Under the pieces are notes generated by a model, which did not search any database, had not been told where the DNA came from, and saw only the letters and a program-made list of their open reading frames with translations. Positions 62,101-63,967 of a stretch of 64,000 nt of DNA are shown piece after piece. A program made the translations under genes and the position numbers. The stretch is from the NCBI RefSeq assembly GCF_045679555.1, contig NC_092093.1, positions 65,359,575 to 65,423,574 on the forward strand. The letters run 5' to 3'. Origin of the DNA: Salvelinus alpinus (Eukaryota > Chordata > Actinopteri > Salmoniformes > Salmonidae). Numbering within the stretch: the stretch's first letter is position 1; each line of letters opens with the position of its first letter.

Positions 62101-63967
62101 TTTTATTATTATATATATATATTTTTTAATTAAGATGAATTTAACGACATTAGTACATATCACTGCAAGATCATTCTCTCATATGCTTCTCTTGAACCAA
62201 TAAAAAAGATCAAAGATATTCAGCAATTCTTGAAGGACAATGGAAGTTCAGTAGAATAAGTACTTGTTGGCCTATTTTTATAAATCATTTTGTAATTTCT
62301 ACAATGTAGGTTGAAGTGATGTATGAAGACGAGCCACTGAAAGATTACTACACATTAATGGACATAGCCTACATCTACACCTGGAGAAGGGTAAGAAACA
62401 TAACATTAATGGACGTAGCCTACATCTACACCTGGAGAAGGGTAAGAAACATAACATTAATGGACATAGCCCACATCTACACCTGGAGAAGGGTAAGAAA
62501 CATAACATTAATGGACATAGCCCACATCTACACCTGGAGAAGGGTAAGAAACATAACATTAATGGACGTAGCCTACATCTACACCTGGAGAAGGGTAAGA
62601 AACATAACATTAATGGACGTAGCCTACATCTACACCTGGAGAAGGGTAAGAAACATAACATTAATGGACATAGCCTACATCTACACCTGGAGAAGGGTAA
62701 GAAACATAACATTAATGGACATAGCCCACATCTACACCTGGAGAAGGGTAAGAAACATAACATTAATGGACGTAGCCTACATCTACACCTGGAGAAGGGT
62801 AAGAAACATAACATTAATGGACATAGCCCACATCTACACCTGGAGAAGGGTAAGAAACATAACATTAATGGACATAGCCCACATCTACACCTGGAGAAGG
62901 GTAAGAAACATAACATTAATGGACATAGCCCACATCTACACCTGGAGAAGGGTAAGAAACATAACATTAATGGACGTAGCCTACATCTACACCTGGAGAA
63001 GGGTAAGAAACATAACATTAATGGACATAGCCTACATCTACACCTGGAGAAGGGTAAGAAACATAACATTAATGGACATAGCCCACATCTACACCTGGAG
63101 AAGGGTAAGAAACATAACATTAATGGACATAGCCCACATCTACACCTGGAGAAGGGTAAGAAACATAACATTAATGGACATAGCCTACATCTACACCTGG
63201 AGAAGGGTAAGAAACATAACATTAATGGACATAGCCTACATCTACACCTGGAGAAGGGTAAGAAACATAACATTAATGGACATAGCCCACATCTACACCT
63301 GGAGAAGGGTAAGAAACATAACATTAATGGACATAGCCTACATCTACACCTGGAGAAGGGTAAGGAACATGATATTAAAGGGGAAGTTTGTAAAAACATG
63401 CAATTAAAGGCAATGTAAACATTTTTAACAAGTTGAAAGTAATGTTTTTTTTTGTAAATGATTGCATGACTTTTTATTTCAACCTTTGGCTCTGTGATGT
63501 TTCATAGGCCTACTTTAGAGTGTGGAATGCATGAAAGTTCGCAGTTCAAAAGCTTTATTATCCATGAAGGAAAAAATCATGATTGCCCTGCAAGTTGAGA
63601 CAAAGTAGCTCTAAGTATTACAAATATTTTTCAGAATGGCCCTTTGCCATTGAAGTACCGCGTCAGACCTAGCTGTAAGAAGATGAAGATGAGTCATCTG
63701 CAGCAGGAGGGACAGAACAGCACTGGTCGGTCCGCTGAGAGCGACTCAGCCAGCGACAAAGCCTGCAGCCCTGCCGCTGTCCCCTCCACCTCCTCCTCCT
63801 TGCCCAGCCCTGGCACCCCGGTGCAATCGCCACACCCACACTTCCCCCACATCTCCAAGCCTGTCAATGGAGCCTCCACCTCGGCCCCAGCCCCTACCAG
63901 ACCCTTCCCCTTTGGAAAAAAACCACGGAAGGCCTCGCTGAATGGTTCTTCTGCATCCTCGGGATGA
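59188..63967 (+). CDS. bmi1: Polycomb complex protein Bmi1 (PCGF4), complete
   Basis: Coding exons: 59169-59299 (ATG at 59188), 59570-59666, 59899-59954, 60264-60314, 60722-60830, 61311-61356, 61940-62038, 62310-62390 and 63635-63967, phases consistent, 327 residues (human BMI1 has 326). The RING finger (residues 18-56) has CVLC, CLHSFC and CPIC intact. [12 protein letters not shown] and [12 protein letters not shown] lead into the RAWUL domain, ending near [13 protein letters not shown]. The tail is Ser/Pro-rich with basic KKMK and KKPRK clusters. Bmi1 pairs with RING1A/B in PRC1, which ubiquitinates histone H2A, and represses Cdkn2a and Hox targets. An upstream in-frame ATG at 59182 has a weak context (T at -3); 59188 has A at -3 and matches the family start. 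The exon ending at 62390 has been tandemly amplified with its donor; see 62352-63371. Whether this is bmi1a or bmi1b cannot be told. Confidence 0.95.
62352..63371 (+). repeat. 20 x 51 bp minisatellite built from a bmi1 exon end and its splice donor
   Basis: Each unit consists of 39 bases of exon (ACATTAATGGACATAGCCTA, CATCTACACCTGGAGAAGG) plus 12 bases of intron (GTAAGAAACATA). Donors recur every 51 bp from 62391 to 63360: 19 read AGG|GTAAGA and the last AGG|GTAAGG. Unit 1 is the genuine exon end. The frame stays open through all 20 units and stops at 63405-63407. Units differ only at two sites (GACATA or GACGTA; CCTAC or CCCAC), giving residues MDIAYIY, MDVAYIY or MDIAHIY. Such low divergence suggests recent or ongoing expansion or homogenisation. 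Confidence 0.97.

Follow-up and report, generated by a model that had tools for sequence, protein, structure and literature searches.

The closest described counterpart of the array reported here lies in the human CBS gene, where Lievers et al. in 2001 (doi 10.1038/sj.ejhg.5200679) reportedly described a 31-bp VNTR at the boundary of exon 13 and intron 13. Excerpts of two papers (PMC5188458, PMC1395315) likewise place this 31-bp repeat at the exon 13/intron 13 boundary and describe it as polymorphic. As a minisatellite sitting on an exon/intron boundary, the CBS repeat resembles the array that we describe in bmi1, but its unit length is not divisible by three and its sequence is called non-coding in the excerpted review, whereas the bmi1 unit is 51 bp long, in frame, placed in a conserved domain, equipped with many intact donors and present in two duplicate genes. 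A second CBS variant, 844ins68, is a 68-bp duplication of the intron 7/exon 8 junction and is, like the bmi1 array, a tandem copy of a splice junction; according to the excerpt of PMC2630376, one copy is strongly favoured and the mRNA is normal. That variant carries one extra copy, against 19 extra donor copies in bmi1, and the excerpt speaks of donor sites while a work cited there is titled for 3' splice site selection. In human segmental duplications, minisatellites at exon-intron boundaries are described as altering gene structure, some with alternative transcripts, with units averaging 30 bp in four copies in primate-specific paralogues (PMC2812944), and no 20-fold donor array like that of bmi1 is among the repeats described in the excerpt. 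The length of the MIR137HG VNTR is associated with donor choice in cis, but the excerpt of PMC6692358 places two novel donors in the pre-miR-137 sequence of exon 3, and not one in every repeat as in bmi1. Finally, tandem duplication of a genomic segment has been proposed as a route to splice signals in intron gain (PMC4974935), which makes a new intron, whereas the bmi1 array multiplies the donor of an old intron. Among the open-licence papers listed in our literature searches, none dealt with a bmi1 array. A first-pass annotation of this DNA stated that it knew of no described counterpart, a view that is wrong given the CBS VNTR and of the boundary repeats in human segmental duplications; the array is real and striking, but not unique in kind.

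The window, by which we mean the whole 64,000-nucleotide stretch of Salvelinus alpinus DNA under analysis, carries at its end an intact bmi1 gene on the plus strand (59188..63966), for which tblastn with human BMI1 and a splice model yield nine coding exons and a protein of 327 residues if exon 8 is spliced from its first donor. The top database match of this protein is brown trout BMI-1-A (97%), and 5' of bmi1 the stretch 47003-55179 contains exons that match the COMMD3 portion of COMMD3-BMI1 fusion models. Coding exon 8 (62310..62390, plus strand; 81 nt, phase 0 at both ends) ends in TWRR217, and coding exon 9 (63635..63966, plus strand) starts with NGPLPL and encodes the end of the RAWUL domain and the C-terminal tail, with the junction between them falling after Arg217 of the 327-residue spliced Bmi1. 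The RAWUL stretch has its PDB match in human BMI-1 chains (Polycomb complex protein BMI-1; E value 4.6e-47), and it is on this match, together with precomputed Pfam labels of homologues, that the placement of the junction in the RAWUL domain, already proposed in the first-pass annotation, rests. Elsewhere in the gene, exon 5 has a pair of tandem donors at its end, separated by 12 nt (window 60823-60848, CAACAA/GTACGTCAACAA/GTCTGT), which differ by four residues in frame; the distal donor corresponds to P0001 (the X1 model of brown trout) and to the Chinook model P0055, and the proximal one to P0006 (Chinook) and P0009 (coho).

The boundary of exon 8 and intron 8 is occupied by 20 tandem units of 51 bp (62352..63371, plus strand), each made up of the last 39 nt of exon 8 followed by the first 12 nt of intron 8 including the donor, so that the final 39 nt of the real exon form the exonic part of unit 1. 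Tandem Repeats Finder, run on the window, reports this array at 62352-63378 with a period of 51, 20.1 copies, 97% matches and no indels; an indel-free, 97% matched array of 1 kb is not a chance pattern. Reading in register places the 20 donors at 62391+51k (k=0..19), with AGG/GTAAGA in 19 of them and AGG/GTAAGG in the last, from donor 1 (GTAAG, 62391..62395, plus strand) to donor 20 (GTAAGG, 63360..63365, plus strand), all sharing the single acceptor AG of intron 8 that the splice model puts at 63633..63634 on the plus strand. No unit among the 20 contains a stop in the coding frame, and when the whole array is read into the intron, 15 further codons follow the last donor before the frame is closed by a TAA at 63405..63407 (plus strand). 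These results confirm the core of the first-pass annotation, which had called 20 in-frame 51-bp units across this boundary, donors from 62391 to 63360 in steps of 51 against an acceptor at 63633-63634, and stop-free insertions of 17 codons after Arg217 at a phase 0 exon end; Tandem Repeats Finder and the in-register reading bear out the units, the in-register reading and the splice model the sites, and the splice model the frame and insertion point.

Each unit thus contains an exon end and an intron start, as in an exon-intron-boundary VNTR of the CBS 31-bp type, and is not wholly intronic as in an ordinary intronic minisatellite, unit 1 being mostly coding exon. In its sequence the array also has the make-up of in-frame tandem alternative donors, with 20 competent-looking donors, one acceptor and the frame kept throughout. 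An open period divisible by three is unremarkable on its own, with roughly one chance in four by our estimate, because 39 of the 51 bases copy a coding exon. The 19 added units of the window differ at two columns only, one Ile/Val (Val in 5/19) and one Tyr/His (His in 9/19), giving three protein-level types found nine, five and five times. The 17-residue sequence quoted as the unit in the first-pass annotation does occur, in five of the 19 added copies, but is not the commonest, another type accounting for nine. Other parts of the window hold 18- and 24-bp tandem arrays at 38105-39117 within long open frames (ORF 37928-40060 on the minus strand and 38096-39298 on the plus strand), a 20-bp minisatellite, AGTGAAACATAATACCAGTT, in about 79 copies at 21673-23196, and two overlapping plus-strand frames at 45159-46180, which we take to resemble a broken Tc1-type transposase.

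Searching the source genome (2.37 Gb, 928 contigs) with exon 8 plus one unit recovered at least the window locus on contig C8, a closely packed group of matches on C10 and, on C23, two isolated ones, these match counts being lower bounds. The C10 locus (L009, G000:C10:17092500-17099500) is an intact bmi1 gene that gives 327 residues when read from its first donor, and it carries an array of exactly 20 units with 51-bp donor steps (GTAAGA in 14, GTAAGG in four and GTAAAG in two). This second array, of which the first-pass annotation could have had no knowledge, means that the array of the window is not a feature private to one locus. Salmonids share a whole-genome duplication, and the C10 gene is presumably the duplication partner of the window gene. 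The two C23 loci, at 50.69 Mb on the plus strand (L010) and 49.56 Mb on the minus strand (L011), lie about 1.1 Mb apart in opposite orientation and look like bmi1b, a label that is our own. They are near copies of each other around exon 8, with matches in exons 8-9 only for L010 and in most exons for L011; both have one donor, an unrelated intron start and no array, and both encode His in the segment where 9/19 added C8 units have it.

All 20 C10 units, including the exon copy, read GTA (Val) at the position where the C8 exon and 14/19 added C8 units read ATA (Ile). Since the C10 exon carries the Val that is fixed across its array, we infer that exon and array share a lineage, so that exchange among repeats would take in the coding exon. 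Val is likewise found in the masu (P0004) and coho (P0020) entries that resemble the C10 gene, and Ile in the C10-like whitefish entry P0002 (gene assignment by eye), a distribution that would fit an Ile-to-Val change arising in one salmonid lineage and then spreading through exon and array.

Outside the arrays, the introns of the C8 and C10 genes are 65.0-87.2% identical (eight stretches: introns 1-7 and intron 8 from the end of the array onward), while exon 9 is 91.1% identical and exon 8 agrees at 80/81 positions. Units 2-20 of the two arrays align without gaps at 96.4% identity (934/969), and the consensus units are one base apart, at the Ile/Val column. This likeness is largely as expected from 39 of the 51 bases being tied to a conserved coding exon. 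Leaving the donor signal aside, only six bases of the unit derive from the intron; at the divergence of the introns, the probability that these six agree between the two genes is 0.14-0.43, so their agreement tells little. The terminal partial copies flanking the arrays differ at 4/22 bases between C8 and C10, and the C8 partial copy shows the same four differences from its own array. We dropped the identity of 16 post-donor bases in both consensus units (chance 0.005-0.023) as a sign of constraint, 10 of the 16 being copies of exon 8. A test of whole-array transfer between the genes by in-register comparison was uninformative, every order yielding 35 differences, because the variable columns of the C8 and C10 arrays do not overlap; the same lack of overlap speaks against a recent copy of the whole array from one gene to the other. 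Exchange between the genes, a shared array predating the duplication, or repeated expansion from one seed are all possible, and the equal unit number (20 and 20) together with the one-base consensus difference could reflect inter-gene exchange or constraint, and not two independent neutral arrays. In both arrays a unit resembles its neighbours no more than it would in shuffled order, and recent block amplification is not visible. Synonymous codon differences between the two genes number 18 over seven exons (exons 6 and 9 omitted), with none in exon 8 and none in exons 3 and 4; from these counts the synonymous identity of exon 8 does not appear clearly exceptional. Across both arrays four of the seven variable sites change the residue, and at this small number of sites there is no sign of protein-level constraint.

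The start of the array may be traced to a short direct repeat. The proposed exonic half, ACATTAATGG, occupies 62352..62361 (plus strand), and the proposed intronic half, 63372..63381 (plus strand), reads ATATTAAAGG in C8 and is an intact ACATTAATGG in the C10 gene, whose exon and intron start therefore have this 10-mer in common at a spacing of exactly 51 bp. Among 2000 shuffles of the C10 intron start, two had a shared run of at least 10, a count to be read with the caution that the intronic half is the array's own edge, which is also why we infer the origin from a direct repeat and do not regard it as observed. The array-free bmi1b-like loci on C23 have at most six bases in common between exon and intron start. 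With ACATTAATGG present in exon 8 and again 12 bases into intron 8, slippage or unequal exchange would copy what lies between, namely the splice donor and the final 39 coding bases. In both bmi1a duplicates the array would then have grown to 20 units, with exchange that takes in the real exon keeping it uniform, and the two genes could have acquired the same unit from the same seed.

Predicted U1 pairing is -8.9 kcal/mol for 19 of the C8 donors, donor 1 included, and -9.4 kcal/mol for the last (five of the 20 computed, the rest being identical in sequence); in C10, 18/20 donors lie at -8.9 or -9.4 and two at -6.2 kcal/mol. The predicted pairing is thus nearly equal, and strength does not separate the donors. 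By the same measure the array donors surpass five of the seven other donors of the window gene, and only 45 of the 3797 GT sites in the window pair as well, 20 of these 45 being the array. Accessibility (mean unpaired 0.32-0.51 over 8/20 donors) shows no clear gradient. For near-equal donors, human data in the excerpt of PMC9225289 describe a preference for the upstream site under exon definition, with exclusive use of the upstream donor in five minigenes carrying two identical strong donors. In human events the downstream donor wins about 60% of the time before strength matching and the upstream donor 60% only after it, and larger exon constructs with weakened donors skipped the exon (PMC9225289, same excerpt). 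Intron definition, with a border at 250 nt, favours the last donor. Exon 8 measures 81 nt from donor 1 and more than 250 nt from donor 5 onward, and all possible lengths of intron 8 exceed 250 nt (1244 down to 275 in C8, 1461 down to 492 in C10), while the introns upstream of exon 8, of 271 and 245 nt, lie at the border. By the exon-definition rule, donor 1 is predicted to win in both genes: the acceptor of an 81-nt exon defined across the exon would pair with the nearest donor and give normal Bmi1, and the remaining 19 donors would bind U1 transiently at best. With upstream introns of 271 and 245 nt, definition across the intron may nevertheless operate, and it would favour donor 20. Rare use of donors 2 to 4 would add 17, 34 or 51 loop residues to Bmi1 with no frameshift, and the in-frame, stop-free unit of 17 codons may explain why the array is tolerated. 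Considering the sequence as a whole, we think it probable that a minisatellite arose at the boundary from the 10-bp repeat and that donor 1 is used for most or all transcripts. The first-pass annotation had left a strong preference for donor 1 and a ladder of isoforms side by side, and on these predictions the balance leans to donor 1.

Proteins of relatives were gathered as the best 120 of 542 matches to the read-through array together with the matches from an ordinary protein search, 185 being fetched in all. VRNIT or VKNIT, which would mark an added unit, occurs in none of these 185 homologues, which are listed cluster representatives, so that it is the annotation, and not necessarily an isoform, that is absent. 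The junction TWRR/NGPL is found in brown trout (P0001), whitefish (P0002), masu (P0004), Chinook (P0006) and coho (P0009, P0020), but these normal salmonid proteins are weak evidence for donor 1, since those fish may or may not carry the array. The site that is His in 9/19 added units is Tyr in 184 of the 185 proteins, the remaining one being without the exon. One Chinook entry, P0055, is the only one of the 185 without WRR; its exon 8 is missing and replaced by FKSFI, which matches intron 8 bases 63545-63559, and the loss may reflect trouble in aligning the array. The bird protein P0121, which scored highest with the read-through query, was rejected as a repeat carrier because it fuses two RAWUL stretches that differ from each other, and P0123-P0127 (non-salmonid by label), which read WRR/VR, look like models running past the donor into their own intron and not like carriers of added units. 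A 26-base piece of the unit had, as expected, no matches in prokaryote genomes and none in viral contigs.

Several of these donors could also be in use, giving Bmi1 with 0, 17, 34, 51 and more extra residues in the RAWUL loop, perhaps according to tissue or to individual copy number. Near-equal predicted U1 pairing and open, in-frame units are compatible with this, and in the structural model of P0001 the exon 8/9 junction is predicted to fall in the loop of residues 219-226, which connects helix 212-218 to the last RAWUL strand, 227-235; local pLDDT is about 70-80 against 47.8 overall, the RAWUL part alone being usable. The human CBS VNTR is said to show signs of alternative splicing by RT-PCR. 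In bmi1 itself, annotated salmonid models differ as if both in-frame tandem donors of exon 5 were used, and the His of the bmi1b-like loci implies that replacing Tyr by His is not necessarily harmful. In any longer forms, the repeated TLMDxAxIYTWRR segment could, speculatively, compete with the native copy for the same position. Against such a ladder stand the absence of the added unit from all 185 fetched homologues, the near-invariance of the Tyr that nearly half of the added units (9/19) have lost, the residue changes at four of seven variable array sites with no sign of protein-level constraint, though the sites are few, and the exclusive use of the upstream donor in the exon-definition minigenes (PMC9225289, excerpt), and we regard it as unlikely.

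A second alternative leaves the protein unchanged and assigns the effect to U1: 20 strong U1 sites within 1 kb of the last intron would delay the removal of intron 8, cause it to be detained or keep unspliced RNA in the nucleus, and copy number would in this way tune the output of Bmi1. Here the concentration of 20 of the window's 45 such GT sites in the array and the presence of 20 units in both duplicates are suggestive, and at the human CBS boundary VNTR a higher copy number is associated with lower enzyme activity, as stated in the excerpted review text (PMC5188458 / PMC1395315). An excerpt of PMC8724738 describes how a further 5' splice site recruits more U1 and SRSF1 to a single RNA, but the added site aided splicing there and did not hinder it. 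Two of the 20 C10 donors are the weaker GTAAAG, indicating that donors are not strictly kept, and the equal copy number may be chance; we judge this dosage effect to be rather improbable. Near-identical repeats of 1 kb are prone to assembly error, and an assembler might have inflated an array of a single or few copies. The arrays, however, lie on two contigs with different variants, their unit types are interspersed and not in blocks, and no array appears at the bmi1b-like loci, which makes an artefact very improbable indeed. The most far-reaching reading, in which a donor array in both duplicates of a Polycomb gene gives a Bmi1 ladder or a platform of 20 U1 sites that tunes the dose of Bmi1, and in addition feeds variants back into the exon, as with Ile to Val in C10, strikes us as doubtful. 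The interpretation offered by the first-pass annotation is, as a whole, partly supported.

The bmi1 array represents a natural test bench for the choice among near-identical donors, with 20 donors at fixed steps before one acceptor. Published minigenes, as excerpted from PMC9225289, carry two identical donors, while bmi1 offers 20 in their native place, and the two array-bearing bmi1 copies together with the array-free bmi1b-like loci supply a built-in contrast. The C10 gene further suggests that a minisatellite can carry along a conserved exon edge, linking repeat turnover with protein evolution. If the ladder or the dose effect were real, a chromatin regulator of farmed and wild salmonids would be under a simple and variable control exerted by copy number.
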